From Candidatus Baltobacteraceae bacterium (GTDB lineage: Bacteria > Vulcanimicrobiota > Vulcanimicrobiia > Vulcanimicrobiales > Vulcanimicrobiaceae): 36,210 nt of DNA. Under the pieces are notes generated by a model. The model did no database searches and was not told the origin of the DNA. It saw only the letters and a program-made list of their open reading frames with translations. The translations under genes were made by a program, and so were the position numbers. The stretch lies in contig DATBTN010000054.1 of the NCBI GenBank assembly GCA_036559195.1, forward strand, positions 1 to 36,210. The letters are read 5' to 3'. Shown here piece by piece: positions 3,401 through 24,545 of this stretch. Within the stretch, counting starts at the first letter, position 1. The number at the start of each line of letters is the position of its first letter.

Positions 3401-5326
3401 GTGATCCCTCGCTTTCATGCGCGTGCGCTTTGCGCCGCGCTCTTCATCATCGCCGGCAGCGCCGGCGTCGCCGCAGCACGAGAAACGCCCGCGCCCTCGC
3501 CGTCCCCAAGCGCGCCTCCGGAGATCGCGCACGTCGTGACCAGCGATCGTTCGGACGAGTCGATCGACCGGGTGGCGCGGACCACGTTCGTCATCACCAA
3601 AGAAGAGATCGTCCGGCACGGGTACCGCAGCATCGCGGACGCAATCGCCACGTTACCGGGCGTCAATCTCGTACGCTACGGCACGACCGGTTCGGCCGCA
3701 AGTTTCGGCATTCGCGGAAGCTCGACGTCGCAGGTGCTGGTACTGGTCAACGGTCTCCCGGCTGCCGGCTCGCAGATCAACAATCTCGATCTCAATTCCA
3801 TTCCGACCACCGGCGTCGAACGTATCGAAGTCGTCGAAGGCGGCGGCTCGACGCTCTACGGCGCGGACTCCGTCGGCGGAGTTATCAACGTGATCGCAAC
3901 GCCGCTGGCCGGCAAAGCGATCCTCGACGCGTTCGCCGGATCCTTCGGAACGCGCGGAGCGAGCCTCGAAACGCGTAACTTCTCCTTCTCGCGAACGATC
4001 GCGCGCAACGATTTCGGCTTGCCGGGCAATGGCGAGCGTCCCAACTCCGATAGCGCGCAGACGACGGCGCGCGTTGCATTCGACCGTCACTTCGGGCGTA
4101 TCCGCGCCGCCTTCGACGCAAGCGTGAGCGATCATCACCTCGGCGTACCGGGGCCCGACGGGTTTCTCTCGGCCACGAGCCGCGAAAACGACGTCGATAC
4201 CGGCGCGCATCTCGCATTCGCGCGTACGGGCGCTCGCGCAACGACGACGCTCGATCTCGGCGGCACGCATCAATCGTTCGTCTACACGTGCGACACCCCG
4301 GTCGATTCGAGCTGCCCCAACTATCCCTTTACGGCCGGCGCGCCAATTCCGCCGCCCTACGCGCAGCTCCTAACCGAAGGACGCGTGGAGGCGAACTTCC
4401 GTAACGTACTCTCGAGCGACCGCACGCGCACCGTCTACGGCATCGACCTCTCGCGCGGCGTGGCGCGCGTGGACGACGGCAGCTCCCCGCTGCAAGTACA
4501 CGGATTCGCGCGCACCGCAATCTACGTGCAGCAAAATTGGCTCGCACGCACCGGGTCGCGTTTTTACGCCGGCGTTCGGGCCGAGCGCGACGGCGCGCAG
4601 GGCGGAGCGTTCTCACCGTCGATCGGCGGCATCCTGCGCCTTTCGCCGCAGCTCTCGCTCAAGGCCAACGCCGCGACGGCGTTTCGCGCGCCGAACGCAA
4701 GCGATCTCTACTATCCGGGGTTCAGTAACCCGAATCTCCAAGTCGAGCGCACGCGCGTCGCCGACGTTTCGCTCGTCGATCGCGGCCTGCTCGGCGGCGC
4801 CACGCTGACGTGGTTTACCACTACCGGACGAAATCTGATCGTCCTCGATCAAACCTACACGCCGCAGAACGTCGGTCACGCCGCAATCGCGGGCCTGACG
4901 TTCGCAATTCGAACCGTACCCATCCGCGGCTATTACGCGAAACTCAACCTCACGAATCTCTATCGCGAACGAGATCTCGATAGCGATCCGGCGATCGACA
5001 TCTACTCGGGCAAACGCTTGCCCAATCGAGGGCCGGTCCTCGCCGCCAATCTCGAACTCGGCTTTTTGGGCCGTCCCGCCTCCGCGATCGAGAGCGCGGC
5101 AATCACGATGCGCACGGCCGGCGCACGCGGGCCGGTCGATTCGAGACTGCCGCTCTTCGACCAGCCGGCGACGTACTCGAATCTCGGCGCGTTCGTGCGA
5201 TTTCGGCTCGACCGCGATGCGCTCTTAACGCTGCGCGCGTCGAATCTCGGGAACGAGCGGTACGCCGAGATCGGCGGCTATCCGATGCCGGGCCGGAGCT
5301 TCGTCGTGGAGCTCTCGACCCGTTAA
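3401..5326 (+). CDS. btuB: TonB-dependent outer-membrane receptor, vitamin B12 type (BtuB)
   Basis: The 641-residue protein has a signal peptide (about 1-25, ending GVAAA) and a periplasmic linker rich in Pro/Ser. A plug domain follows (about 58-170, with ITKEEIVRHGYRSIADAIATL and VERIEVVEGGGSTLYGADS), then a beta barrel to the C-terminus. E. coli BtuB is 614 residues. It takes up its ligand across the outer membrane with energy from TonB-ExbBD, none of which are in this window. Cobalamin as ligand follows from the riboswitch directly upstream and from btuC and btuD directly downstream. The start is a GTG with AGGAAGG 6 bases upstream. The last residue is Arg rather than the usual aromatic one of barrel proteins. 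Confidence 0.93.
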   Translation: MIPRFHARALCAALFIIAGSAGVAAARETPAPSPSPSAPPEIAHVVTSDRSDESIDRVARTTFVITKEEIVRHGYRSIADAIATLPGVNLVRYGTTGSAASFGIRGSSTSQVLVLVNGLPAAGSQINNLDLNSIPTTGVERIEVVEGGGSTLYGADSVGGVINVIATPLAGKAILDAFAGSFGTRGASLETRNFSFSRTIARNDFGLPGNGERPNSDSAQTTARVAFDRHFGRIRAAFDASVSDHHLGVPGPDGFLSATSRENDVDTGAHLAFARTGARATTTLDLGGTHQSFVYTCDTPVDSSCPNYPFTAGAPIPPPYAQLLTEGRVEANFRNVLSSDRTRTVYGIDLSRGVARVDDGSSPLQVHGFARTAIYVQQNWLARTGSRFYAGVRAERDGAQGGAFSPSIGGILRLSPQLSLKANAATAFRAPNASDLYYPGFSNPNLQVERTRVADVSLVDRGLLGGATLTWFTTTGRNLIVLDQTYTPQNVGHAAIAGLTFAIRTVPIRGYYAKLNLTNLYRERDLDSDPAIDIYSGKRLPNRGPVLAANLELGFLGRPASAIESAAITMRTAGARGPVDSRLPLFDQPATYSNLGAFVRFRLDRDALLTLRASNLGNERYAEIGGYPMPGRSFVVELSTR

Positions 5327-5327
5327 C

Positions 5328-6311
5328 GTGGGCTTTCGGCTTGCAGGCTTGACGTTCGTGGCGCTCGCCGCCGCGCTCGTCAGCCTGCTCGTCGGCGGCA
5401 CCGCACTCGCCTTTCACGATGTCGTGCGCGCGCTCGCCCACCCGGGCGCACACGACGATCTCACCACGATCGTCTGGCAATTGCGCGTGCCGCGCGTTTG
5501 CATCGCGCTCGTCGTCGGCGCGTCGCTCGCGATCTCCGGCGCGCTGCTGCAAGGGATGCTGCGCAATCCGCTCGTCGACCCGTCGCTCATCGGCGTGAGC
5601 AGCGGCGCGGCGGCCGCGATCGTTTTGGCGCTCGTCCTGGGCGTCGCGGCGCCGCTCGTACCGGGCGTCGGTTTCGTCGCCGGCATCGGCACCGCACTGC
5701 TCGTGGCCACGCTGGCGCGACGCGGATCGGGCATCGACGTCAACCGTTTGATTCTCGCAGGCGTCTCGCTCTCGGCGTTCTTTGCGGCGATCATCGCGGC
5801 GATTCTCACCCGTTCGCGCAACTCCGATTACAGCACCGCGATCATCTCCTGGCTTGCGGGTTCGTTAGCCGGGCGGGGCTGGCACGACATCGCGTTTGCG
5901 ATGCCGTACGTTCTTATCGGTTTGGCGCTCGCGCTCTTGAGCGTTCCCGCGCTTAACGCCCTGCGTTTAGGCGACCTGCGGGCCGCCGCCGCGGGCGTCA
6001 ACGTCGACCGCGCGCAGTGGCTGATTCTCGCGGCCTCGTCGCTCTTGGCCGCCAGCGCCGTAACGCTTTCGGGAACCGTGGGTTTCGTCGGACTGATCGT
6101 TCCGCATATCGCACGACGTATCGTCGGCTCCGATACGCGGTTCGTGGTGCTCGCCTCCATCTTGCTCGGCGCGGCGTTGACCGCGCTCGCCGACGCCGCC
6201 AGCCGCACGATCGTCGCACCGGCGGAACTGCCGATCGGCGTGCTGCTGGCCTTCATCGGCGTACCCACGTTCTTATATCTCTACCTGCACGACGGGGGAC
6301 GGCCGCGATGA
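5328..6311 (+). CDS. btuC: Cobalamin ABC transporter permease BtuC (FecCD family)
   Basis: The 327-residue, very hydrophobic product has about ten transmembrane helices and FecCD-family signatures: GASLAISGALLQGMLRNPLVDPSLIG near residues 62-88 (in part), GTVGFVGLIVPHIARRIVG near 246-264, and PAELPIGVLLAFIGVPTF near the end. It forms the membrane channel for cobalamin and pairs with the BtuD ATPase. It begins with GTG one base after the btuB stop and ends in an ATGA overlap with btuD, so the three genes form one operon under the riboswitch. Without the context it could equally be read as a siderophore permease. Confidence 0.92.
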   Translation: MGFRLAGLTFVALAAALVSLLVGGTALAFHDVVRALAHPGAHDDLTTIVWQLRVPRVCIALVVGASLAISGALLQGMLRNPLVDPSLIGVSSGAAAAIVLALVLGVAAPLVPGVGFVAGIGTALLVATLARRGSGIDVNRLILAGVSLSAFFAAIIAAILTRSRNSDYSTAIISWLAGSLAGRGWHDIAFAMPYVLIGLALALLSVPALNALRLGDLRAAAAGVNVDRAQWLILAASSLLAASAVTLSGTVGFVGLIVPHIARRIVGSDTRFVVLASILLGAALTALADAASRTIVAPAELPIGVLLAFIGVPTFLYLYLHDGGRPR

Positions 6312-7087
6312 TCGTCGCGCGCGAAGTCGGCCTGCGAATCGGCGATCGAACGTTGCTCGACGACGTGAGCTTCGACGTGCGCGCCGGCGAATTCGTGGCC
6401 GTGCTCGGACCCAACGGCGTCGGCAAGACGACGTTGCTCCGAGCGATGGCCGGAACGCGCGCCATCGAATCCGGCACTCTCTGCATCGCGGGTCGCGAGA
6501 TCGCCCGCTTGTCGCCGAGCGAGCGCGCGCGCACGATCGCCTTCATGGCAAGCGACGATCTTTTTAGCGAGCACCTGACGGTGCGCGACGTCGTCGCGAC
6601 GGGCCGGTACGCTTACCATCGTTGGTGGCAATGGCACGAAGATGCGGTCGACAGCGCGGCGATCGAACGCGCGCTCGACGCGGTTGGGATGCGCGCGTTT
6701 GCCGCCCGCGCGTTCGTCACGCTTTCGAGCGGCGAACGGCAACGCATTTGGCTGGCGCTCGGGCTCGCGCAGGAAGCCCCGGTGCTGCTTCTCGACGAGC
6801 CGACCAGTCATCTGGACGTACGCGTCGCGCATTCGATCCTCGCGCTGCTACGCGAGCAAGTGCTCGCCGGCAAGAGCGTGGTCTGCGTTCTCCACGATCT
6901 CAACGAAGCGGCCGAATTTGCCGACCGCATCATGCTGCTGGGCTGCGGAAAGATGCTCGCGATCGATACGCCGGCGGCCGTCTTCGAATCGGGCCGGCTC
7001 GAACAGGCCTACGGAGTACCGATGGAGATCGTGCACGCTCCGAGCGGCGCGCTGCGCGTGTTTCCTGCGGTCAGCCGGCGCGAGTAA
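6308..7087 (+). CDS. btuD: Cobalamin ABC transporter ATP-binding protein BtuD
   Basis: The 259-residue ATPase starts at the ATG of the ATGA overlap with btuC. An open frame further upstream is only the shadow of btuC. Walker A is GPNGVGKTT (34-42), the ABC signature LSSGERQ (139-145), Walker B LLLDEPTSHLD (160-170), and the switch His lies in VLHDLNEAAEFADR. The usual Q-loop glutamine seems absent: where relatives have YLPQ, this protein has FMAS (79-82). The family is FecE/FhuC/BtuD; cobalamin is assigned from the riboswitch and btuB-btuC. Its 3' end overlaps the convergent HNH gene by 17 bases. Confidence 0.92.
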   Translation: MIVAREVGLRIGDRTLLDDVSFDVRAGEFVAVLGPNGVGKTTLLRAMAGTRAIESGTLCIAGREIARLSPSERARTIAFMASDDLFSEHLTVRDVVATGRYAYHRWWQWHEDAVDSAAIERALDAVGMRAFAARAFVTLSSGERQRIWLALGLAQEAPVLLLDEPTSHLDVRVAHSILALLREQVLAGKSVVCVLHDLNEAAEFADRIMLLGCGKMLAIDTPAAVFESGRLEQAYGVPMEIVHAPSGALRVFPAVSRRE

Positions 7088-7490
7088 CGCGCGCGACGCG
7101 AATAGCGGAGGTGTGTTCCTGGTGGCAAGGGACGCACAGCGTTTCGAGATTCTCCAGGTGATGGGCGCAACTCAAGCGCGCGTGCGCTCCACGGCACGGT
7201 TCGCGATGGTTGACTTCGAGCCGCCCGCTCTTGCGTTGCGCGCGCGTGCAGCCGCGTTTGGGAAGGGCGTGGCCGCAGCGCGTGCAGCGGTACTTGTCGC
7301 GGCGTTTGGCCGCTCGTCGCGCGAGCGTCCACCAATGGTTCTTCCAAAACGAGGTACCGCAGCGATCGCTGCACCACGTTCGGCGCCGCGGCGGCAACGG
7401 TTGCCCGCACCACGCGCACCCGCCGAGCGCCGGTCGCGCGAGCGGACACGCCGCCAACAGCGAGGCGCTCTTCGGCGCGCCGGCTACCAT
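7071..7490 (-). CDS. Small HNH endonuclease with zinc-binding cysteine pairs
   Basis: The 139-residue protein has an N-terminal zinc knuckle (CAWC at 25-28 and CSDRC at 40-44, followed by GTSFWKNHWW). An HNH nuclease module follows: CTRC at 69-72, LEVNH (His95), NLETLC (Asn114) and CVPCHQEHT (Cys119, Cys122, His123). HNH proteins cut or nick DNA, but the target here is unknown. The ATG at 7490 is chosen because the upstream open frame is the shadow of the next gene. It overlaps the end of the secreted-protein gene by 7 bases, so the three minus-strand genes read as one transcript. It could be a free-standing homing-type nuclease or a host nuclease. Confidence 0.82.
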   Translation of the reverse strand: MVAGAPKSASLLAACPLARPALGGCAWCGQPLPPRRRTWCSDRCGTSFWKNHWWTLARRAAKRRDKYRCTRCGHALPKRGCTRAQRKSGRLEVNHREPCRGAHARLSCAHHLENLETLCVPCHQEHTSAIRVARVTRAG

Positions 7491-7888
7491 GGATCCGAAC
7501 GCTCGGGAATTCCGGCGCCGCGCACGTCGGCGGCGGTTACCCAGCCGTACTTCCCGCGGTAGGGGCCGCTCGCGATCTGCACGCCGATCGCGTCGTCGGT
7601 CGTGAAACGGAATTTCGGATGAACGACGTCGGACGTGCATTCCTGCACGACGACGATCGTCCCCGGCCGGGCGAGGACCGCGTGCGGCGTTAAGAACTTT
7701 CGCGTGTCCGACGAGCCGCCGGCATATTCGATAAGGCGGTTCTTATTATCCCATACCAGTACGTCGGGATCGTCGGCCCCGCCGAAAAGTACGACTCGCT
7801 GCCCCCTGCTCACGCGGCAATCGGCCATCGCCAATCCCGACGTCGCAACGAGCGCCGCGAATAACGCGGCGAGCACGCGCCTACCCAC
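7484..7888 (-). CDS. Small secreted protein, possibly SH3-like
   Basis: The 134-residue product has a clear signal peptide (MGRRVLAALFAALVATSGLAMA, about 22 residues; mature start DCRV). The mature part is beta-rich, has two cysteines (Cys24 and one in VVVQECTSD) that may form a disulfide, and ends with GKYGWVTAADVRG, which resembles the last strand of bacterial SH3 domains. I do not recognise a named family. It starts with GTG and overlaps the phosphatase gene before it by 8 bases and the HNH gene after it by 7 bases. A periplasmic or extracellular binding role is only an inference. Confidence 0.7.
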   Translation of the reverse strand: MGRRVLAALFAALVATSGLAMADCRVSRGQRVVLFGGADDPDVLVWDNKNRLIEYAGGSSDTRKFLTPHAVLARPGTIVVVQECTSDVVHPKFRFTTDDAIGVQIASGPYRGKYGWVTAADVRGAGIPERSDPW

Positions 7889-9278
7889 GTTCGACCGTTT
7901 CGTCGAGGCGCGGTTCGCACACGCGAATTGCCAGAATCGCCAGATCGTCGCGCATCGCGTTGCCGCCGCGCGCGCGCACTTGTGCGATCAGCTCGTCGGC
8001 CAGCGCTTGCGGTTCTCGGCTCGAATGCTCGATCCACGCCATCGCGCCCGTACTATCGAGCAGCGCGCCGTGTGAATCGCGGGCCTCCGTAAGGCCGTCG
8101 GTCGCGAGCACGACCGTATCGCCGTCGTCGAGGTAGACGGTCTTGACGTCGAAGGGCTCCTCCATCACGCCGAGCACGGGCCCGGTGACCGCGAGTTGCT
8201 GCACGCCGTTGGAACGTCGAATGAAGGCCGAATCGTGCCCGGCGCTGGCATATTGAAGACGCAGCGCCTGCGTGTCGAGGATCCCCACGAACATCGAGAC
8301 GAAGAGATATGGGTCGGCCACGGTGCGAGGAAACGCCGTATTGAACTCCGCAAGGATGGATCCGGGATCGCGACGCCGCAGCGCGATACCACGGATGGTG
8401 AACTTGATGAACGCCGTCAATACCGCCGCATCGACGCCTTTTCCGCTAACGTCGGCGATCAAGAGAAGCGCGAGCCGCTCGGAGAGCTGGTAGACGTCGA
8501 AGACGTCGCCGCCGACCGCCAAGTGGCTGCTTGCCGAAGCGTAGGCGCTGCCGATCTCGCAGTTGGGGAGCGGAACGTGTTCGCTCTTAAACGCTCGCTG
8601 CAGCGTCCGCGTGGTGGTCCGCTCCTCTTCGAGTGCGCGGTCCAGCCGCGAACGGTACGCATTGAATAGCACGGCGAGCAATCCGAAGACGATCAGCCAA
8701 AACGCGCGCCAGTAGAGCGTTCGATTGATTTGATCCTGCGTCTCTTTCGCGATGCGGGTGCTGCGATCGTGAAGCAGCGCGGCGATCGCGCGGGCGTCCT
8801 GGCTCTCTTCGTCGATCGAAACCTTACCGCGCTTGTCGATCCGGCTCGCATTCGCGCTCGGATGCGCGAGCAGCGGCTGCGCGACTTCGTGGTGCCAATC
8901 CGCGTGCGCGATCAGATAATCGTCGAAAGCGCCGAGCGCCGGGGTTAGTTTCTGCGCGACCAGGACCGCGCGCAACTCGCGCTGACTGGTATCGAATTGC
9001 GTCGAGGTAGCGCGAAACGCGTCGAGCGAACCCGGATCGTGCGCGATCGCGTAGGCGTAGATATAGTTCTCTTCATCGAGCTGAAGTTTGAGCATCTCCT
9101 GCAGCGTGAGCTCGGCGTTCTGCAGGTGCTGCTGCTCGGTGTAAGAGGCCGCGATCTGCGCGCGCGTACTAAAAGCGCCGCTGACTGCAAAGGCCAGCGC
9201 TACGATGAGGATTGCCGTCGCCGTAAGCGTGCCGGCGCTGCGGAGAATCGGCGCGAGCCAAAGCGGCGTTCGCCTCAC
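7881..9278 (-). CDS. Membrane-bound PP2C-type (SpoIIE/RsbU) serine phosphatase with periplasmic sensor
   Basis: The 465-residue protein has transmembrane helices at about 17-36 and 191-208. They flank a ~155-residue helical ectodomain resembling CHASE3 sensors (LQLDEENYIYAYAIAHDP near 66-82). After TM2 comes a coiled-coil linker and a PP2C/SpoIIE domain with metal-binding GGDVFD (256-261), ADVSGKG (275-281), ATDGLTEA and a final MRDDLAIL. Such enzymes dephosphorylate anti-sigma-factor antagonists in partner-switching pathways. No antagonist or kinase gene is nearby, so the partner is unknown. The start is a GTG with AAGGGGGG upstream, 53 bases from the divergent phosphohexomutase gene. Confidence 0.88.
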   Translation of the reverse strand: MRRTPLWLAPILRSAGTLTATAILIVALAFAVSGAFSTRAQIAASYTEQQHLQNAELTLQEMLKLQLDEENYIYAYAIAHDPGSLDAFRATSTQFDTSQRELRAVLVAQKLTPALGAFDDYLIAHADWHHEVAQPLLAHPSANASRIDKRGKVSIDEESQDARAIAALLHDRSTRIAKETQDQINRTLYWRAFWLIVFGLLAVLFNAYRSRLDRALEEERTTTRTLQRAFKSEHVPLPNCEIGSAYASASSHLAVGGDVFDVYQLSERLALLLIADVSGKGVDAAVLTAFIKFTIRGIALRRRDPGSILAEFNTAFPRTVADPYLFVSMFVGILDTQALRLQYASAGHDSAFIRRSNGVQQLAVTGPVLGVMEEPFDVKTVYLDDGDTVVLATDGLTEARDSHGALLDSTGAMAWIEHSSREPQALADELIAQVRARGGNAMRDDLAILAIRVCEPRLDETVERG

Positions 9279-9331: not shown

Positions 9332-10681
9332 ATGCAAACGCAGCAAATTGCGGCTATTTTCAAGAGCTACGACGTTCGCGGGATTTATCCGGCCGAACTC
9401 AATGACGATACGGCATATCAGATCGGCCGCTGCTTCGCCTCGCTCCTGCGCGCGAAGACGATCGTCGTGGGTCGCGACATGCGTCCTTCCGGCGAAAAGC
9501 TCTTCGAAGCGTTTGCGCGCGGAGCGACCGAGGCCGGAGCCGACGTCGTCGACATCGGGATGGTCTCCACCGATGCGCTGTACTTCGCGGTGGGCAAATA
9601 CGGCTACGACGGCGGCGTTATGATCACCGCCTCTCACAATCCCGCCCAATACAACGGGATGAAGTTTACCAAAGATCGCGCGCAGGCCATCTCGCTCGAA
9701 ACCGGCCTCTCGACGATCCGCGATGCGATCGCGGCCGGAAACCTGCCGCCCAAGGCCGCAACTCCGGGGTCCGTTAGCGAGCGCGATATCCTCGAGGATT
9801 TCGCGGCGCATTGCCTCTCGTTTATCGACGCAAGCAAGATCAAACCGTTCAAGATCGCAATCGACGCCGGCAACGGCATGGCCGGCCTTACGGTTCCACA
9901 CGTTTTCAAGCATCTTCCGTGCGAAGTCATTCCCCTCTATTTCGAACTCGATGGGAGTTTCCCGAACCATCCGGCGAGCCCGATCGAACCGGAGAACATG
10001 ATCGATCTTCAAGCGGCAGTTCGCAAACACGGCTGCGACCTTGGAGTCGCCTTCGACGGCGACGCGGACCGCATGTTCATCGTGGACGAAACCGGCGGCT
10101 TGATCGGCGGCGATATGGTCACCGCCATCGTGGCGATCAACACCCTCAAACGCTACCCGGGCAGCCGCATCCTGTATAACCTGATCTGCAGCCGCAGCGT
10201 GCCCGAGGTCATCGAACGCAGCGGCGGCGTCCCGATTCGCTCGCAAGTCGGTCACTCGCTCATCAAGAAAACGATGCGCGACGAAGACGTGATCTTCGGG
10301 GGCGAACACAGCGGACACTTTTACTTTAAGGAAAACTGGTACGCCGATTCGGGCATGATCGCGCTGATGCAATGCCTCGAAGTCTTCAGCGAGACCGATA
10401 AGAACGTCAGCGCGGTGATCGCTCCGATCGACACGCGCTTTCGCTCGGGCGAAATAAACAGCGAAGTTCAAGACATCCCGGCTAAGATGGCGCAAATCGA
10501 GTCGCATCACAAGGACGCCGCAATCGATCACCTCGATGGGGTCACGATTTCATACCCGCATTGGTGGATGAACATCCGCCCGTCGAATACCGAGCCCCTA
10601 TTGAGGTTGAACGTTGAGGGCGATACGAAGGAACTGATGGAAAAGAACCGCGACGAGGCACTCGCGCTCATCCGCTCGTAA
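9332..10681 (+). CDS. manB: Phosphomannomutase/phosphoglucomutase
   Basis: The 449-residue enzyme belongs to the alpha-D-phosphohexomutase superfamily and interconverts hexose 1- and 6-phosphates in the cytoplasm, feeding sugar nucleotide synthesis for polysaccharides. The catalytic phosphoserine loop is TASHNP (Ser101) and the metal loop DGDADR (242-247). The sugar-binding loop is GGEHSGH (323-329) and the phosphate-binding loop RPSNTEP (416-422). Length and motifs fit the bifunctional AlgC/ManB type; preference for mannose or glucose cannot be read here. It is the first of three close plus-strand genes with the dynamin-like and nagA genes. Confidence 0.92.
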   Translation: MQTQQIAAIFKSYDVRGIYPAELNDDTAYQIGRCFASLLRAKTIVVGRDMRPSGEKLFEAFARGATEAGADVVDIGMVSTDALYFAVGKYGYDGGVMITASHNPAQYNGMKFTKDRAQAISLETGLSTIRDAIAAGNLPPKAATPGSVSERDILEDFAAHCLSFIDASKIKPFKIAIDAGNGMAGLTVPHVFKHLPCEVIPLYFELDGSFPNHPASPIEPENMIDLQAAVRKHGCDLGVAFDGDADRMFIVDETGGLIGGDMVTAIVAINTLKRYPGSRILYNLICSRSVPEVIERSGGVPIRSQVGHSLIKKTMRDEDVIFGGEHSGHFYFKENWYADSGMIALMQCLEVFSETDKNVSAVIAPIDTRFRSGEINSEVQDIPAKMAQIESHHKDAAIDHLDGVTISYPHWWMNIRPSNTEPLLRLNVEGDTKELMEKNRDEALALIRS

Positions 10682-10687
10682 CGCCGC

Positions 10688-13402
10688 GTGAAGATCGACG
10701 CCGATGCCATGGCGCGGTACGAGGCCGTCCGCGACGACATCGTAGCGCAACTATCGCAACTCGAAGCACTCTTACCCGAGAAGCCGCGCTCCGACCTGGA
10801 AGCCGCGCGGCTGCGTCTCGAGCGCGGGCGATTCGTCCTCGCGGTCGTCGGTGAATTCTCGAGCGGCAAGTCCTTCTTGCTCAATGCGTTACTCGGGAAG
10901 TTTCGCTACGAGGAAGTGCAGGGTCGCGAACAAATCGTCGGCCTGCTCGCGACCGACATCAATCCGTCGACGGCGACGATCACCGAACTCGAATACTCGC
11001 CGGTCAACGAAGCCTATTCGTACTACGAGGACGGCCGCTCCGAGCGAATCCCGCTCGACCGCCTCTCCAACTTCGTGGCGGTCGCCGGCAGTACGAGCGA
11101 CGCCGGCGCCGTGCACAGCGCGACGCAAGACGATCGCGGCGCACCGACTCGCGTCGTCGTTAAAGTCGATTCGCCGTTTCTAGGGCGCGGCTTCGTGGTC
11201 GCCGATACGCCGGGGCTCGCCTCGGTCAATCCGGCGCATCGTCGCGCGACGCTGCAGTTCTTGCCGGCCGCCGACGCCGTCCTCTACCTCATCGATACGC
11301 AGCAGCCGTTTACCGAGGGCGATGCGTCGTTTCTCGGTATCGTCCGCCAACACATCGACTCGATCTTTATCGTGCAAACGAAGATCGATCTTTGGGACCA
11401 GCGTCAGCGCGATGGGCGGCTCGCGTGGGAGAGCGCGCACGAGCGCATCGCGCAACTCGCGGCGGTTCACGCACCCGGTACGTACGTCTACGCGCTCTCG
11501 GCGCGACAGTATGCCGACGGCGTCCTACGCCAAGACGCCGCGCTGGTCGAAGCGAGCCGCTTCGAACGCTTTCTCGGCGCGCTCGACGCGTCGCTCATCA
11601 AGACGACCGGCCGATCGCGCCTGCGCCGCATCAACGAGCGCGTGCGCGAAGCGGCCGGCGACGCGCTCGTTCAAATCGAACGCGACCTCGCCATGCTCGC
11701 GCTCGCTCCGGTCGCGCTGAGCGCTCGCCGCGATCTGCTCCTGCCCGATCTCGAACGTCTCGACCTCGGCGTCGCCGCCGAGCGCGGCGCGCTTGGTGCG
11801 ATCGCCGCCGCGCGCAAAGAGACGCTCGCGCGGCAGACCTCGGCGTTGATCGACGATATCGAACGCGCGCTCGGGCAAACCTTCGACACCGCGGACATCG
11901 CGCGGCTGCGGGATCGCGCGCGTTTGCACGTCCTCGTCGACCGCGCGCTCGCGCAGGTTGTCGGTGAGTTCGCAAACGAGGTCGCCGCGGCCGTTTGCGC
12001 CGAACTCGACGCTGCCGTCGTGCGCGGGACGGCGCTCGTTCCACTGCGCTTCGCCCTCGCCGATACTGCCGCGCTTTCGTTCGGAGCCGAGCCGGGCACG
12101 AGCGTGTGGAACGGCGACGTCCGCGACGCGATCGCCGCGACGATCGTACTCGAAGCGATCGGCGGACCCGCGATCGCACTGGTGCAAGAGATCTCCGCGC
12201 GCTTCGCCGGGGCGTCGCCCGGCAGCTATATGAAACGCGAGCTTACGGCCGATTTGCGGGCGACGATCTTTCCGCAACTGCGCGATGAGATCGCGGCGTT
12301 CGGTGCCGACACGGCCGCGAAGCTCGCGCGCATGTACGATGGCTACGATGCCGAGCTAGCCGGAGGAGCCGAGCGCCGGCGCGAGGCCGAGATCGGAACC
12401 ATCGAGCGCGCCCTGGCGGTTCGGGCGCAGGGCGGCGATGTCGCGAACGTCGTCGCGCAGTTGCAGGCGCGGCGCGAAGCGATTGCCGCGCTTCTTTCGC
12501 GCGTCGGCGAGACCGTCGATGCGTTTCTCACGCGCGATGAAGAGATCGCGCCCGCCGACGCGGGCCCCGAGGCGATCCGGCGCGCGCACGTCGAGCAGAT
12601 CTTCGATCGCGAGGCGTACGGACGCGGGCTGCGCCCGCAGCGGTGGCGCGTGACCGTTCTCGGCGCGCTGCGGCGCGGAAAATCGAGCCTGATCAACACC
12701 GTCGCCGGTCGCCGCGTTTTGGCCGACGAGACGGCCGGCGTCATCGCGTACCCCGTTCACGTACGCTATGGCGAGCAAGAGCAGGCGTTCGCGTTACACG
12801 AGGGCGGCGAGTGGCGCGAGGTCGAGATCGAGTCGGCACTCGATGAAGCCACCCGCAATCCCGTATTGATTTTGGTTCCGTGGAAACTCCCGCGCGAGCT
12901 CGTGCTCGTGCACGCGCCGGCCTTCGATACGGGCGATCCGATGGCCGAAGACATTTGCATCGTGGCGGCTCGGGCTTCGAGCGAGGTGCTTTGCCTCTTT
13001 TCGCGTCAGCTCTCCGATCGCGAACTCGCGATCTACGAGCGCGTGGCCGAGCTCGGCAAGCCGATGCTCTTCGCGCACACGATTGCAGACAACGAGTCCG
13101 CATCCGAACGGCGCCACGTCGTCGCGCTCGCGCAGCAGTATCTCCAAGAGCACAACATCGAATCGCAGCGCATCTTTACGATCTCGACGCTCGAATATTC
13201 GCAAGCGAAGCGCGAGGGGCGCGCGCCCGCCGGATGGAACGAACTCGATGCGCTGATCTCCACGCTCGAAGGGCATGCGGAGGCTCATATGGCGCGTTTA
13301 GCCCGTCTCGAACGCGCGGCGGCCGCACCGGCGGCGGTTGCAACATCCGTCGTTCGCGAAAAAGCAAAAACAGGTTTGCTCGCGCGTTTGTTCGGGAAGT
13401 AG
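10688..13402 (+). CDS. Double-headed bacterial dynamin-like GTPase
   Basis: The 904-residue protein carries two dynamin-like G domains. The first is intact: P-loop GEFSSGKS (55-62), switch threonines INPSTATIT (91-99), DTPG (173-176) and TKID (231-234). A long helical stretch rich in Ala/Arg/Glu (about 300-640) follows, as in dynamin stalks. The second has a P-loop GALRRGKSS (659-667), but DxPG is replaced by HAPAF (742-746) and TKxD by TIAD (798-801), so it probably binds or hydrolyses GTP poorly. Tandem dynamins such as Bacillus DynA act on membranes; a few bacterial dynamins help against phage or antibiotics. No clear transmembrane paddle is seen. The start is a GTG 6 bases after the preceding stop. 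Confidence 0.85.
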   Translation: MKIDADAMARYEAVRDDIVAQLSQLEALLPEKPRSDLEAARLRLERGRFVLAVVGEFSSGKSFLLNALLGKFRYEEVQGREQIVGLLATDINPSTATITELEYSPVNEAYSYYEDGRSERIPLDRLSNFVAVAGSTSDAGAVHSATQDDRGAPTRVVVKVDSPFLGRGFVVADTPGLASVNPAHRRATLQFLPAADAVLYLIDTQQPFTEGDASFLGIVRQHIDSIFIVQTKIDLWDQRQRDGRLAWESAHERIAQLAAVHAPGTYVYALSARQYADGVLRQDAALVEASRFERFLGALDASLIKTTGRSRLRRINERVREAAGDALVQIERDLAMLALAPVALSARRDLLLPDLERLDLGVAAERGALGAIAAARKETLARQTSALIDDIERALGQTFDTADIARLRDRARLHVLVDRALAQVVGEFANEVAAAVCAELDAAVVRGTALVPLRFALADTAALSFGAEPGTSVWNGDVRDAIAATIVLEAIGGPAIALVQEISARFAGASPGSYMKRELTADLRATIFPQLRDEIAAFGADTAAKLARMYDGYDAELAGGAERRREAEIGTIERALAVRAQGGDVANVVAQLQARREAIAALLSRVGETVDAFLTRDEEIAPADAGPEAIRRAHVEQIFDREAYGRGLRPQRWRVTVLGALRRGKSSLINTVAGRRVLADETAGVIAYPVHVRYGEQEQAFALHEGGEWREVEIESALDEATRNPVLILVPWKLPRELVLVHAPAFDTGDPMAEDICIVAARASSEVLCLFSRQLSDRELAIYERVAELGKPMLFAHTIADNESASERRHVVALAQQYLQEHNIESQRIFTISTLEYSQAKREGRAPAGWNELDALISTLEGHAEAHMARLARLERAAAAPAAVATSVVREKAKTGLLARLFGK

Positions 13403-13426: not shown

Positions 13427-14650
13427 ATGTGGGGAGTACGCCGGGCTGCGACGAAGCATTCGGCGTGCACGGCGAAGGAGGCAATTCCCACGTCTGACCG
13501 TTTCACCCTGGGCCCCGCGACGCTTGCGATCGGCGATGGGTCATCTACCTACGGTCGCCTGGTCGTTGCGAACGGTCGAATCAGCGAGGTTCTTCCCGCC
13601 GACGGTCCGAGCGACTTTTATCTCCCCGCCGGTACGACGATCGCCCCGGGACTCATCGAGCTCCACACGCACGGTGCGGGTGAGTTTCTATTCAATCGCG
13701 ATCAAGGATACGCGGTGCCGGTTGCGGCGGTCGAATACGCGCGCCAGGGCGCCACGGCATTCGTCGCCTGCATTATGACGGCTCCTTGGGAATCGATGCT
13801 GCACGCTGCCGGCGAAGTCGTCGAAGCGGCGCATCAGCTCGAAGAGGACGAGCCGCGCGGAGCGCGTTGCTTGGGCATTCATTTTGAAGGGCCGTTCCTC
13901 AATCCGAAATTTCGACGCGTCCATCGCGCCGAGTGGATCATTCCCGCATCGGCAGAGCGCGCCCGAGCGATGGTCGATGCGTGTAAAGGCGCGTGTCTGA
14001 TGGTAACGCTCGCGCCCGAGATCGACGGCGCCGGTGAAGCCGCGCGCGTCTTTCTCGAACACGGCTGCGTTTGCTCGGCGGGACATACGGGCGCGCGGTA
14101 TCGCGAAGGTATGCTGGCGATCGGCATGGGCTATCGTTCGCTCACGCACGCGTTCAACGCGATGCTGCCGCTCGATCACCGCGAACCGTCGATTCTCGCG
14201 GCCTTCATTCAAGATACGCGCACGATGGTGCAGCTGATCTGCGACGGTCATCACGTGGCGCCGGTCATGGTCGATATTCTGCACCGCACGATCGGCGACC
14301 GGCTGATCCTCGCAACCGATCTAATGCCGCCGGCCGGTCCGGGCTATCGCGTCGAAGGCGGCGTGATGCGCTCCGAAGACGGCACGATTGCCGGCAGCGC
14401 CGTCAAGATGGATCAATCGCTGCGCAACTACATGACGTACACGGAGATTTCGTTTGCCAAGGCGATCGCGGCCGTGACGCACGCGCCCTCGAAACTTCTC
14501 GGTTACGAGAGCGACCTGGGCCGAATCGCGAAGGGCTTACGCGCCGATCTCTCGTTCTGGAACGACGATTATCACGTCATCGGCACGATGGTCGGCGGAA
14601 CGATGGTCCACGGCGACTGCGTCTCCCCTGTGGCCGCTGCAGCTTCATAG
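13427..14650 (+). CDS. nagA: N-acetylglucosamine-6-phosphate deacetylase
   Basis: NagA removes acetate from GlcNAc-6-phosphate in cell-wall sugar recycling. The 407-codon frame shows the amidohydrolase fold: ELHTHG (metal-binding HxH), LGIHFEGPFLNP (catalytic-site Glu/His), CSAGHTGA, SLTHAFNAM, CDGHHV and the active-site Asp in LATDLMPPAG, ending with GLRADLSFWNDD. The start is doubtful. The only canonical in-frame start is the ATG at 13427, which has no ribosome binding site. A perfect AAGGAGG sits at 13475-13481, with only ATT (13484) or ACG (13490) in frame just behind it. Similarity to the family would begin only after that point. Confidence 0.9.
   Translation: MWGVRRAATKHSACTAKEAIPTSDRFTLGPATLAIGDGSSTYGRLVVANGRISEVLPADGPSDFYLPAGTTIAPGLIELHTHGAGEFLFNRDQGYAVPVAAVEYARQGATAFVACIMTAPWESMLHAAGEVVEAAHQLEEDEPRGARCLGIHFEGPFLNPKFRRVHRAEWIIPASAERARAMVDACKGACLMVTLAPEIDGAGEAARVFLEHGCVCSAGHTGARYREGMLAIGMGYRSLTHAFNAMLPLDHREPSILAAFIQDTRTMVQLICDGHHVAPVMVDILHRTIGDRLILATDLMPPAGPGYRVEGGVMRSEDGTIAGSAVKMDQSLRNYMTYTEISFAKAIAAVTHAPSKLLGYESDLGRIAKGLRADLSFWNDDYHVIGTMVGGTMVHGDCVSPVAAAAS
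13475..13481 (+). promoter_or_regulatory. Strong ribosome binding site inside the annotated nagA frame
   Basis: AAGGAGG is the best Shine-Dalgarno match in the area. No ATG, GTG or TTG in the nagA frame lies within reach behind it. An ACG codon in frame sits at the ideal distance (8 bases, 13490-13492) and an ATT at 2 bases. This implies a rare start codon, a base error or mutation at the start, or chance. Confidence 0.5.
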
Positions 14651-19873: not shown

Positions 19874-21103
19874 ATGACGAACGTGCGTTGCTGCATCGTC
19901 GGAGGCGGCCCGGCCGGTATTATGCTTGGATACCTGCTCGCGCGCGCCGGCCTTGAGGTAGCCGTGCTGGAAAAGCACGCCGATTTCTTTCGCGATTTTC
20001 GCGGCGACACGATCCACCCGTCGACGCTGCAGCTCATGTACGAACTGGGGCTGCTCGACGAGTTTCTCCGATTGCCGCATCAAGAGGTGAGCGAGCTAGG
20101 CGGTCAGATCGGCGACGATTCATTTACGGTGGCGGACTTCTCGCATCTCTCCACGCGCTGCACATTCATCGCACTCATGCCGCAATGGGATTTCCTGAAT
20201 TTCATCGTCGACCAAGCGAAGCGCTATCCGGGCTTTCACCTGTACGTGAACGCGGAGGTCACGGATCTGCTGTTCGATGGAGAACGCGTCGCCGGCGTCC
20301 GCGCGAAGACGCCGCAAGGCGTCGAGGAGTTTCGTGCCGATCTCGTGGTCGGGGCCGACGGCCGAAGTTCGAAGGTTCGCGAGCGAGCCGGTTTGGAGAT
20401 ACTCGATCTCGGCGCGCCGATGGACGTGCTCTGGATGCGGCTATCGCGCCGCGAGAGCGATCCCGGTCAGGCGCTCGGACGCGTCGATGCCGGCAAAATC
20501 CTCGTCATGATCGATCGGCGCGACTATTGGCAGTGCGGATTCGTGATCGCGAAAGGCAAACTGGACGAAATCAAACGTCGCGGCCTGCCCGCTTTGCGCG
20601 ACGACGTCGCGAAACTCGCCCCGTTTGCCGCCGACCGCGTCGACGAGCTGCGCGACTGGGACGACATCAAGCTGCTGACCGTCAAGATCGATCGGCTGAA
20701 GCGCTGGCATCGGCCCGGACTGCTGTGCATCGGCGACGCGGCGCACGCGATGTCGCCGATCGGCGGCGTTGGAATCAACCTCGCCATCCAGGATGCCGTT
20801 GCGTCCGCCAATATCCTCGCGGATCCGCTGCTGCACCAAAACCTTTCGAGCTCAGATCTCGCCCGGGTGCAGCGCCGCCGCGAGTTTCCGACCCGCGTCA
20901 CGCAGCGCATGCAAGTCTTCATCCAAGATCGCATCGTCAGCGCCGTTTTGAATAGCCAGGGCAAACTTTCGGCGCCGTGGCCGCTGCGCGCGATGAACGC
21001 CTTTCCGTGGCTGCGCCGGATCCCCGCACGCCTCGTCGGCGTCGGAATCCGCCCCGAACACGTCGCTACGCCGGCTCGAGCTCCCGGGTCGCGGCCGCGT
21101 TAA
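19874..21103 (+). CDS. FAD-dependent aromatic-ring-type monooxygenase (PHBH fold)
   Basis: The 409-residue flavoprotein has the dinucleotide motif GGGPAG (10-15), the DG motif VVGADGRSSKVRERAG and the FAD-ribityl motif CIGDAAHAMSPIGGVGINLA. These define class A flavoprotein monooxygenases such as p-hydroxybenzoate or 2-polyprenylphenol hydroxylases. They use NAD(P)H and O2 to hydroxylate a substrate, which cannot be named here. It stands alone, divergent from livK (117-base gap). Its 3' end overlaps the convergent metH end by 38 bases. The ribosome binding site is weak. Confidence 0.85.
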   Translation: MTNVRCCIVGGGPAGIMLGYLLARAGLEVAVLEKHADFFRDFRGDTIHPSTLQLMYELGLLDEFLRLPHQEVSELGGQIGDDSFTVADFSHLSTRCTFIALMPQWDFLNFIVDQAKRYPGFHLYVNAEVTDLLFDGERVAGVRAKTPQGVEEFRADLVVGADGRSSKVRERAGLEILDLGAPMDVLWMRLSRRESDPGQALGRVDAGKILVMIDRRDYWQCGFVIAKGKLDEIKRRGLPALRDDVAKLAPFAADRVDELRDWDDIKLLTVKIDRLKRWHRPGLLCIGDAAHAMSPIGGVGINLAIQDAVASANILADPLLHQNLSSSDLARVQRRREFPTRVTQRMQVFIQDRIVSAVLNSQGKLSAPWPLRAMNAFPWLRRIPARLVGVGIRPEHVATPARAPGSRPR

Positions 21104-24100
21104 AGTAGCTCGCGCGCGGGTGATGCATGACGATCGCCGCGGTCGATTGCTCGGGAACGATCTGACCGGCGTCGGTTAGAATCGTGCCGATCGCATTCTG
21201 CGCGTCGAGCAGATCGAAAGCGATGCGGTGCTGCAGCACGTCCGGGCACGCGCCGTATCCCCACGAGTAGCGCTTGCCGCGATCGGGCGCCAGTCCGAGT
21301 TCCGCGCGAATGTGACGATGCGACCACTCGGCGAGCGCCTCGGCGCTCTGCACCGAGAAGCCGTGCAGAAAATAGGACTCGCTGTAGTCGCCCGCTTTTT
21401 GCAGCACCTCGGTGCGCTCCGAGGCTTCGGTGCCGACGGTGACGACTTGCAGCGCGACGACGTCGCTGCCGCGCCCGTTCTCCGGCTCGCGCAGGTAGTC
21501 GGCCAGACACAAGTGTTCGCCACCGGCCTGGCGCGTGAACGGGAAGCGGGCGATTTCGCGCGCCGTGTCGTTCGGATCGTAGACGATGACGTCGTTGCCG
21601 ACGCCGGCCGCCGGAAAATACCCGTACACGACGCGCGGCGCGAGCAGCGCTCCGTTCTGCGCGAGTTCCTGGTAGCGCTTCAAACGTGGCTCGAACTCCT
21701 CGCGGATCAATCGCTCGAACGCCTCGCCTTTGGTGTTCGCCGCGCCCCACGACAAGCGGTACAGGCTGCGCAGATCGAAACACGGCCAGAGATCGGGCAA
21801 ATCGATGTGCGCCAGCGTGCGCGGCCCAAAGAATGGGGCGCGCGGAACATCCACCCGCTCGTTCTTGACCGCCGCGATGCGGACCGGCGCGCCGTTGGCC
21901 GGTACGGCCGCCGCTTTGGCGGCGTTCGCAGCGACCGCTTCGCCCTTCATGCGCTCGACGAAGGCTTCGCGCGATTGCGGGTTGCCGACGAGCGCCTCCA
22001 TGATGTCGAGCCCTTCGAAGGCGTCTTTGGCATAAAAGAGTCCCGGTGCGAAGACCCGTTTGCCTTCGTCGAGCATCGAGATGCGTCGGCCGAAGTCCCG
22101 GTTGATCGCCGCGCCGCCGACGAGCACCGGAAACGCGAGGCCGCGTTGGTCCTGTTCCTGCACGCAGATCGGCATCTGCTTGCTCGTTGAAACCAGGAGC
22201 GCGGAGAGTCCGATCGCATCGGCGCCGACCTCGATCGCCTTCTCGAGGATCGTGTTCATCGGCACTTGTTTGCCTAGATCGAACACGGTGTAGCCGTTAT
22301 TGCTCAGGATCGTATTGACGAGATTTTTGCCGATGTCGTGGACGTCGCCGAAGACGGTTGCGAGCACGACCTTGCCTTTACTCGTGCCTTCTTTCTTCTC
22401 GAGAAACTGCTCGAGATGCGCGACGGCCTTCTTCATCACCTCGGCCGATTGCAGAACGAACGGCAGGATCAATTCGCCCGACCCGAACTTATCGCCGACT
22501 TCTTTCATTGCGGGCAGCAAGACGTTGTTGAGCACGTCGACCGGATCGCGACGCGCGAGCGCCTCGTCGACCTTCGCTTCGATTCCGTCTTTTCGACGGC
22601 GGAGGATCGCGTTGTGAATGCGCACTTCGGCCGGCGCGTCCGCGTCTTCGTCGCGCGCGTCTCCGGCCGACGCGCGCGTGGTTCCGGCGTCCTCGAAGTG
22701 TTCGATGACGCGCTGCAGCGCGTCCGCCCGCTTGTTGAATACGAGATCGTCGCACAGTTCGCGTTCGGTCGCATCGAGTTCGCCGTAGGGCGTAATCTCT
22801 TTCGGATTGACCAAGGCCATATCGAGCCCGGCTTGCACGCAGTGGTGCAGGAAAACCGAGTTGAGCGCCGCGCGCGCGTGCGGCTTGAGCCCGAAACTCA
22901 CGTTGCTCACACCGAGCGACGTCAGCACGCCGGGCATCTGCGCTTTGATACGCCGGATTCCGTCGATCGTTTCGACGGCCGAATCGACGTACTCGTCGTC
23001 GCCCGTTGCGAGCGTGAAGGTGAGATCGTCGAAGATCAGGGCGCCGGCCGGGATGCCGTATTCGTCTACGACGATATCGTAGATCTTCTGCGCGACCTCG
23101 GCCTTGCGCTGCGCCGTCTTCGCCATTCCCGCTTCGTCGATCGTGAGTGCGACGAGCGCGGCCCCGTGCTCCTTGGCCATCGGCACGATCTGATCGACTT
23201 TGACGCGGCCGTTCTCCAAGTGAATGGAGTTTACGATCGCGCGGCCGGGATTGGCTTTGAGCGCGGCTTCGATCACTTTCGGTTCGGTCGAGTCGATCAT
23301 TAGCGGCGCTTCGACCGACTGCGCGAGCTTGCGGACGATCAGACGCATCTGTTCGTCTTCATCGGTACGCTCGGTAACGGCGCAGCAGACGTCGAGCACG
23401 TGCGCTCCGCCTTCGACTTGTTCGCGTGCGACGAGCATGATGTCGTCGTACTGCTCGTTGAGCAGCAAACGCTTCAGCTTTCGCGATCCCTGAGCGTTGA
23501 TGCGTTCGCCGATGATGAGCGGACGCGGCTCTTGTTCCAGCGAGAGCGCCGTCATCGCCGACGCGGCATACTGCTGCGGCTTGGGCTGGGGCGAGCGGCC
23601 GTGCAGACCTTCGATAGCGGCGCAGATCGCCGAGATGTGGGCCGGCGTGCTGCCGCAGCAGCCGCCCACCACGTTGACGCCGAACTCGCGAACGAAGTCG
23701 CCGAGTTCGCGCGCCAGCTCCTCCGGCGTCTCCGGATAGATCGTCTCGCCTTTGGGTCCCATCAGGGGGAGGCCCGCATTGGGAATGACGCTGACGAACT
23801 TATCGGACATCTCCGTGAGATATCGCATCGAGTCGCGCATCTGGGCGGGACCCGTCGAACAATTCAAACCGATGACGTCGATCGGCAGCGCGTCGAGCGT
23901 CGCGCAAATCGCGCGAATGTCGGTACCGAGCAGCATGCGGCCCTCGGTGATGAGCGTCGGCTGCGCCTGGATCGGCACTCGTCGCAGACCGCGGTCGAAT
24001 TCGCGAACGATTCCGGCGATCGCGGCTTTGAGTTCCAGCAGATCCTGCATGGTTTCGAGCAGCAAGAGATCGGCGCCGCCCTCAACGAGAAAGCGCGCCT

Positions 24101-24545
24101 GTTCGCCATAGATATCTGCCAGTTCGTCGTAGGTGATCTTCGAGAGCGATGGGTCCGACGACGAAACGAGCATGCCGGTCGGCCCCATGGAACCGGCCAC
24201 GAACCGCGGCTTCTCGGGCGTCGAATAGCTGTCGCACGCGGCGCGCGCGAGGCGCGCGGCGTTACGGTTGACGTCGGCGACGCGATCGCCCAGCCCATAC
24301 TCGTCGAGTTTGAGCCGCGATGCCGTGAACGTGTCGGTCTCGACGACGTCCGCGCCCGCTTGCAGATAACTCTCGTGGATCGCTTGAACGAGATCGGGGC
24401 GGCTCAGAACGAGCGCTTCGTTGCACCCCAGGTACTGCGCGCCGCCGAAATCGTCGGCGGTAAGCTCGAGGGCCATGAGCTGCGTTCCCATGGCGCCGTC
24501 AAAGACGAGCACGCGCCCGCTTAATTGGCGTAAATACTCAGACAA
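21066..24545 (-). CDS. metH: Cobalamin-dependent methionine synthase
   Basis: MetH transfers the methyl group of 5-methyltetrahydrofolate via cobalamin to homocysteine. All four modules are present in 1159 residues (E. coli 1227). The homocysteine domain (1-310) has zinc ligands Cys229, Cys296 and Cys297. The pterin-binding domain (about 340-600) includes LIIGERINAQGSRK. The B12 cap and binding domain (about 640-850) has DVHDIGKN, whose His736 is the lower cobalt ligand. The reactivation domain (about 900-1159) has the AdoMet motif RYSWGYGACPD (1092-1102). The start is a TTG overlapping the asparaginase stop by 8 bases. The B12 importer in this window would supply its cofactor. I saw no riboswitch before it. 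Confidence 0.95.
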   Translation of the reverse strand: MSEYLRQLSGRVLVFDGAMGTQLMALELTADDFGGAQYLGCNEALVLSRPDLVQAIHESYLQAGADVVETDTFTASRLKLDEYGLGDRVADVNRNAARLARAACDSYSTPEKPRFVAGSMGPTGMLVSSSDPSLSKITYDELADIYGEQARFLVEGGADLLLLETMQDLLELKAAIAGIVREFDRGLRRVPIQAQPTLITEGRMLLGTDIRAICATLDALPIDVIGLNCSTGPAQMRDSMRYLTEMSDKFVSVIPNAGLPLMGPKGETIYPETPEELARELGDFVREFGVNVVGGCCGSTPAHISAICAAIEGLHGRSPQPKPQQYAASAMTALSLEQEPRPLIIGERINAQGSRKLKRLLLNEQYDDIMLVAREQVEGGAHVLDVCCAVTERTDEDEQMRLIVRKLAQSVEAPLMIDSTEPKVIEAALKANPGRAIVNSIHLENGRVKVDQIVPMAKEHGAALVALTIDEAGMAKTAQRKAEVAQKIYDIVVDEYGIPAGALIFDDLTFTLATGDDEYVDSAVETIDGIRRIKAQMPGVLTSLGVSNVSFGLKPHARAALNSVFLHHCVQAGLDMALVNPKEITPYGELDATERELCDDLVFNKRADALQRVIEHFEDAGTTRASAGDARDEDADAPAEVRIHNAILRRRKDGIEAKVDEALARRDPVDVLNNVLLPAMKEVGDKFGSGELILPFVLQSAEVMKKAVAHLEQFLEKKEGTSKGKVVLATVFGDVHDIGKNLVNTILSNNGYTVFDLGKQVPMNTILEKAIEVGADAIGLSALLVSTSKQMPICVQEQDQRGLAFPVLVGGAAINRDFGRRISMLDEGKRVFAPGLFYAKDAFEGLDIMEALVGNPQSREAFVERMKGEAVAANAAKAAAVPANGAPVRIAAVKNERVDVPRAPFFGPRTLAHIDLPDLWPCFDLRSLYRLSWGAANTKGEAFERLIREEFEPRLKRYQELAQNGALLAPRVVYGYFPAAGVGNDVIVYDPNDTAREIARFPFTRQAGGEHLCLADYLREPENGRGSDVVALQVVTVGTEASERTEVLQKAGDYSESYFLHGFSVQSAEALAEWSHRHIRAELGLAPDRGKRYSWGYGACPDVLQHRIAFDLLDAQNAIGTILTDAGQIVPEQSTAAIVMHHPRASYFNAAATRELEPA

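Follow-up and report, generated by a model that had tools for sequence, protein, structure and literature searches.

Why would a bacterial dynamin carry a second GTPase head in the same chain, and what could that head do once its G3 motif is gone? The question is raised by an open reading frame in the window, a 36,210-nucleotide stretch of contig DATBTN010000054.1 from a Candidatus Baltobacteraceae genome (GCA_036559195.1). The frame runs without a break from a GTG start over positions 10,688–13,402 of the forward strand, as do all features described below, and encodes a dynamin-like protein of 904 amino acids with two heads and one stalk. The unbroken frame agrees with the initial annotation, made from the sequence alone, which had placed two heads in a single frame.

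A two-headed chain with a single stalk

Pfam Dynamin_N matched the 904-amino-acid protein in two stretches (86 bits against a cut-off of 27, E = 3e-24), which gives it the dynamin-type G domain of bacterial dynamin-like proteins. The first head (residues 35–310, positions 10,790–11,617; Dynamin_N at 51–217) is a complete dynamin G domain. As annotated at first, it has all motifs: a GEFSSGKS P-loop (55–62; 10,850–10,873), STATIT (94–99), DTPG as G3 (173–176; 11,204–11,215), TKID as G4 (231–234; 11,378–11,389), and SA (271–272). DTPG and TKID occur in all 35 aligned rows, and the motifs vary only at residue 59 (one T, S59T) and residue 97 (32 T).

The full-length model (mean pLDDT 84.7, pTM 0.64) has a single helical stalk of neck and trunk behind head 1 (residues 311–618; 11,618–12,541; model helices at 292–614). 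The top solved fold for the 1–610 part was IniA (PDB 6j72/6j73), with residues 15–610 matching 6j72 at Z = 23.9 and an rmsd of 5.3 over 521 residues of 561. Residues 3–618 matched BDLP (Z = 20.1, 572 residues), and both comparisons recover the neck and trunk behind the head of bacterial dynamin-like proteins. Within the stalk, conservation peaks at 461–525 (0.73, compared with 0.54 and 0.51 in its flanks). By analogy with IniA and BDLP, residues 456–516, which include YMKREL (12,053–12,235), are probably the paddle or lipid-interacting tip, the likely counterpart of the lipid-interacting trunk tip of IniA, and the protein has the GTPase, neck, trunk and tip of the IniA fold. IniA itself is single-headed, with IniC encoded by a gene of its own (PMC6715688), whereas here an altered second head is fused C-terminally.

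A linker (616–640; 12,533–12,607; block pLDDT 67 and 53 (621–640), lowest at 635–637) joins the stalk to head 2 (641–888; 12,608–13,351), and residues from about 640 to 870–890 of the full-length model match G domains separately. Modelled on its own (pLDDT 87.1, pTM 0.77), head 2 again has the IniA G domain as its best fold match (Z = 24.4, rmsd 2.7, 233 residues), followed by mitofusin-1 (Z = 21.5), Fzo1 (20.9), BDLP (18.6) and EngB/YsxC (17.5). Its profile (alignment A4) finds Nostoc BDLP1 (E = 4e-6) and mitofusin-1 (E = 5e-5) first among solved structures; these are single-headed proteins, unlike this one, and mitofusin-1 has the usual DxPG. Given the lead of BDLP1 and mitofusin in the profile search and a Z of 17.5 for YsxC/EngB against 24.4 for IniA, we rejected an EngB/Era-type GTPase. 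From K665 onwards the chain has 239 residues, all taken up by the G domain, its last helix (853–888) and a low-confidence tail, and no second stalk is seen in the model. The label of a tandem dynamin therefore suits the two heads and does not extend to two dynamins, the model and the fold comparison giving one stalk and not two.

The chain ends in a basic tail, GLLARLFGK (896–904; 13,373–13,399), possibly amphipathic and separated from the last helix of head 2 by a variable linker. Among 38 orthologues, 34 have within their final 14 residues a pattern of the F-L-x-R-L-F type, written after the tails had been seen and counted over rows related by descent; the four without it (L046, L053, L073 and L086) show a similar stretch on visual inspection. 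When the last 40 residues were shuffled 500 times, the pattern turned up in a mean of 0.5 and a maximum of 4 of 38 rows, and it was found in none of 22 neighbour genes in the window. Short basic amphipathic tails of a similar sort are present in FtsA-like proteins, and the tail here probably touches the membrane. Taken together, alignments and models give good support to a complete IniA/BDLP-type dynamin followed by a short linker, a stalk-less second G domain and a basic C-terminal tail.

A comparison of the layout with DynA and other two-headed bacterial dynamins had been suggested; with Firmicute DynA it turned out to be one of contrast. DynA likewise joins a pair of dynamin G domains in a single chain, and it is described as two fused dynamins (PMC6104087). 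In three DynA homologues (1223–1243 amino acids) the P-loops lie at 51–80 and 637–667, more than 550 residues follow the second, and both heads have G1 and DxPG, whereas the present protein has 904 amino acids, one stalk and a head 2 without G3. It thus lacks the DynA pattern of G1 and G3 in each head and a stalk behind each head, and the NCBIfam equivalog model for DynA (NF052648) gave 66.4 bits against a cut-off of 1600.

PADLOC returned LeoA- and LeoBC-type matches for the protein (E = 1.5e-17 and 6e-14) and a marginal mad8 match, which we read as general dynamin likeness instead of a defence role; the LeoA/HP0731 family NF041922 gave 16.1 bits against a cut-off of 325. E. coli LeoA/LeoB/LeoC is similar in that the LeoC GTPase domain has its own extra membrane anchor (PMC4159319), and differs in its split genes, its kept DxxG and its hydrophobic 22-residue anchor as opposed to a short basic tail. 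When PF00350 was searched over the window's genome (96.9% complete, 80 contigs), it matched both heads of this protein and a single place elsewhere, on a different contig. That place (25.8 bits alone, 36.9 with neighbours, over the cut-off) is an MnmE gene and not a second dynamin, and no separate partner dynamin was seen in this genome by the search.

Motifs kept and changed in head 2

Motif counts were taken from alignments A2 (35 rows) and A4 (38 rows, head 2). The P-loop of head 2, GALRRGKS (659–666; 12,662–12,685), is kept as first reported, with G659, R663, G664 and K665 in 38/38 rows, S (n = 34) or T (n = 4) at 666, and a mostly basic position 662 (R31, K6, G1). Dynamin_N on head 2 alone scored 29.9 bits, over its cut-off, and covered the P-loop part only.

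The reported loss of DxPG was confirmed across the orthologues. The G3 site reads HAPAFDTG (742–749; 12,911–12,934) and in all 38 rows follows the form H-x-P-[A/P]-F-D-x-G (A in 36, P in two), H742, P744, F746, D747 and G749 being invariant. When the profiles of the two heads are aligned (probability 96.6, E = 5e-10), DTPG falls on HAPA and TKID on TIAD; when the head 2 profile is aligned with mitofusin-1, VHAPAFD falls on VDSPGTD. In the secondary structure of the model, strand beta3 ends at H742 in head 2 (738–742) and at D173 in head 1 (169–173). Complete G3 and G4 elements at other positions had been named as the structural outcome that would overturn the initial annotation. No complete G3 lies elsewhere in the head 2 model, its strand beta3 ending at H742; a G4 is present, but at the normal place after strand beta5, as in head 1. 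It follows that TKxD had wrongly been called lost. This G4, TIAD (798–801; 13,079–13,090), stands straight after beta5 and keeps T798 and D801 in 38/38 rows, with only the lysine replaced; E803 is also found in 38/38 rows. The G4 lysine is absent from mitofusin-1 as well (profile alignment) and from both heads of the three DynA homologues, and because the latter read NQID, and NAID or NAAD, its loss is no sign of a dead head.

A change that the initial annotation did not mention is found in the switch-I region (680–689; 12,725–12,754), where no threonine is conserved. Any T within 680–690 occurs in five of 38 rows, the window's protein (T682) among them; T at 682 itself is found in three rows in all, this one included, and at position 686, the counterpart of head 1 T95 according to the profile alignment, none of the 38 has a T. 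Head 2 also has a signature of its own, LFSRQLSxREL (770–780; 12,995–13,027), the same in 35/35 rows except at L775 (34/35) and the x position.

In IniA, phosphate is coordinated by K49, S50, T70 and D141 (PMC6715688), and head 2 keeps the first two of these positions. Head 2 has retained the G-domain fold and lost catalytic motifs, as is characteristic of a pseudoGTPase. As a control, we inspected the dynamin open reading frames in loci L036–L045 and L092–L117 together with the three DynA homologues. A GxxxxGK[ST] P-loop and a downstream DxPG were kept in 83/83 of these frames (86 heads, both DynA heads included), a sample that leans towards intact heads, having been found by profile.

Conservation, distribution and genome setting

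In conservation, head 2 comes close to head 1: the commonest residue at a position has a mean share of 0.78 in head 1, 0.74 in head 2 and 0.57 in the stalk. Nei–Gojobori dN/dS over the 30 lowest-dS pairs of 374 in range is 0.14, 0.18 and 0.30, respectively, values that are meaningful as an order only, dS being high and some distant pairs having been let in through saturation. These sequence comparisons indicate that head 2 is under strong selection and is not decaying, and conservation across orthologues together with dN/dS rules out a pseudogene or a sequencing error. The impaired second head claimed for this chain is fixed in every aligned row and is no quirk of the window's genome.

Among 98 genomes compared around the window, 46 had some match to the protein, and in 39 the match was strong (E below 1e-90). 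The strong matches all came from the 61 genomes that belong to the same family, and none from the 37 others. The head-2 alignment, searched against 149 genomes of the phylum, matched 49 at E = 1.4e-26 or better, again all of the same family. Within Candidatus Eremiobacterota, these searches thus found the two-headed gene in a single family. The head-2 matches sit in open frames of at least 841 amino acids in 42 of the 49; the seven outside long frames include G117 and G139, as well as G026, G031 and G135, which begin at a contig end, and in G016 and G037 ambiguous bases lie at the split. A programmed frameshift was considered for the split genes (L034/L035, records L082/L089) and rejected, an ambiguous residue at both splits pointing to an assembly fault.

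A recent internal duplication of head 1 is an improbable source of head 2, since hhalign scored head 2 at 69 against head 1 and at 112 against other dynamins, namely nine from the phylum that have one head and a KRGKS-type P-loop. In a tree of G domains, heads 1 and 2 lie apart, but the branches of this tree are very long, and the profile of the KRGKS-type dynamins was also the best match of head 1. Beyond the phylum, the contig scan used an alignment as query and covered a pair of peptide patterns and, of 136 matches, the best 80; head 2 had no match in phage records and viral contigs. A contig scan with a single protein as query gave no match, whereas the alignment query did.

The gene lies between a phosphomannomutase/phosphoglucomutase (PMM) gene (9,332–10,681; Pfam PGM_PMM I–IV) and a NagA-like amidohydrolase gene (13,427–14,650; Pfam Amidohydro_1) whose NagA name is putative, a setting unlike the iniBAC operon of IniA. 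The upstream PMM was present in 41/46 loci and the downstream NagA-like gene in 40/46, with the misses at contig ends. Among the 41 loci, long gaps were seen at L083 (7.0 kb) and L085 (2.5 kb), and the rest had at most 711 bases between matches. In loci without the dynamin (20 of 25 genomes compared, three of them, L167, L168 and L170, from outside the family), the gap from PMM to the NagA-like gene was at most 193 bases in 18/20 and wider, at 857 and 1283 bases, in the other two (L157 and L170). On a PMM tree, built from the 48/55 loci with a long enough match, presence of the dynamin is scattered and takes nine changes, at least four of them forced by starred branches. We read this as one gain between the PMM and NagA-like genes in the stem of the family, followed by repeated loss; horizontal movement into the same PMM–NagA slot may also have taken place.

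How the second head may work

The reading that we favour, and to which we give an even chance, is that head 2 is a nucleotide-binding pseudoGTPase serving as a built-in partner or regulator of head 1, with the tail bringing the head end to the membrane. From the motifs and models we infer nucleotide binding, cis pairing and membrane contact of head 2. Head 2 would bind guanine nucleotide and would be unable to hydrolyse it. The stalk of BDLP returns to its own head, and for this reason head 2 would be leashed beside head 1. There it would act as a fixed, non-hydrolysing dimer partner or regulator of head 1, and each chain would fire one GTP per cycle, not two. The tail would contact the membrane at the head end and the trunk tip would hold another patch, two contacts that would suit tethering or repair of the cell membrane. 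The built-in asymmetric dimer suggested in the initial annotation is plausible.

Parts of this proposal have counterparts in studied proteins. The N-terminal pseudoGTPase of p190RhoGAP holds GTP that is not hydrolysed (PMC10211241). Campylobacter Cj-DLP1 and Cj-DLP2 pair their G domains heterotypically over a short leash, and a nine-residue linker suffices in simulation (PMC6104087); this pair differs in having separate genes and in requiring both catalytic sites. Both DynA heads bind GTP (PMC8844932). In DynA as in Cj-DLP1/2, however, hydrolysis depends on two intact GTPase sites (PMC6104087, PMC6162298), so stimulation by a partner whose own site is dead may not occur at all.

A more tentative and less probable reading would make the protein an obligate pseudo-heterodimer in a single chain on one stalk. 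Head 2 would be a nucleotide-bound, non-hydrolysing activator, with the invariant R663 and the mostly basic residue 662 facing head 1, and the tail would be a membrane adapter; there would be one hydrolysis per chain, and two membrane patches would be bridged.

It is somewhat doubtful that head 2 binds no nucleotide at all and is instead a structural or protein-docking module, conserved for its binding surface. Such a module would fit the absence of G3 and of the switch-I threonine, the conserved LFSRQLSxREL and HxPxFDxG blocks, which are unusual for a GTPase, and the existence of nucleotide-free pseudoGTPases, as two of the three pseudoGTPase domains of p190RhoGAP bind no nucleotide (PMC10211241). 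However, it would not need K665, S/T666, T798 and D801, which are fixed in 38/38 rows.

We consider it unlikely that head 2 is an active GTPase or another NTPase with a non-canonical G3, in which H742 or D747 would replace the aspartate. The invariant H742, D747 and G749 next to strand beta3, the kept P-loop and G4, and T682 in the window's protein (three of 38 rows in all) are consistent with activity, as is the mostly basic position 662, which in our own alignment falls on IniA K46, the equivalent of catalytic R77 of atlastin (PMC6715688). Yet Ala or Pro replaces the G3 glycine throughout the alignment, a conserved switch-I threonine is missing, and a G3 of this kind was seen in 0/86 control heads.

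It seems more improbable still that head 2 is an autoinhibitory cap, sitting on the G interface of head 1 until membrane binding by the tail pulls it off; the anatomy is the same, with a short leash and a membrane-type tail, but it would suit an activating partner as well. An ordinary DynA-type fused pair with one diverged head, or a decaying head, is highly improbable despite the two Dynamin_N stretches in one chain, given one stalk only, 66 bits against 1600 for the DynA model, second heads of DynA homologues that keep G1 and G3, and a lesion fixed under purifying selection.

In the available parts of the open-licence literature, we did not find a one-stalk dynamin with a fixed non-canonical second head. 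The parts of the protein are of known kinds, and what is new is the combination of one stalk with such a head. Research on dynamin-like proteins still asks why many of them work as hetero-oligomers (PMC6162298). The bacterial pairs studied need both GTPase sites, and catalysis and partner function are therefore inseparable in them. A family in which one head is fixed in a non-canonical state under strong selection would separate catalysis from the partner role within one chain, and in the window's genome the search revealed no further dynamin. The conserved altered head thus gives a natural way into the question of why dynamin heads pair.

Genes flanking the dynamin operon

A SpoIIE-type phosphatase gene (7881-9278, minus strand) lies divergent from the phosphomannomutase-dynamin operon in the window. 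SpoIIE-type phosphatase matches were detected in 22 of the 46 relatives' loci, and in 21 of those 22 the gene was located immediately upstream. In part of the family, the interval between the phosphomannomutase and dynamin genes holds an additional ORF of 169-195 codons (KTQIKQAHWNVAGP...; L059 7379-8000, L061 7385-8000, L064 7430-8000, and L081 7386-8000), which by eye looks Dps-like.

Probable B12 uptake genes and a B12-dependent methionine synthase in the window

The genes for a TonB receptor, a FecCD permease, and an ABC ATPase (3401-7087, plus strand) likely encode B12-type uptake. This set and a B12-dependent methionine synthase gene (21066-24545, minus strand) both fall within the one 36,210-nt window.

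Dynamin frames in the control loci

Nine control loci (L094, L096, L098, L103, L104, L105, L110, L116, and L117) each carry two or three adjacent single-headed dynamin frames on the same strand (756-833 aa), all of which have both the P-loop and DxPG. A 1095-aa Sandaracinus frame (L093 1663-4947), within which the contig ends, has ~750 residues of other sequence followed by a dynamin G domain.

Among control single-headed dynamins, the highest score against the profile of the first G domain (head 1) came from an Armatimonadetes record (L092 7848-9707). This frame overlaps an upstream 535-aa frame (6275-7879), for which a Pfam search returned zero matches and which may be a degenerate partner of the adjoining dynamin.
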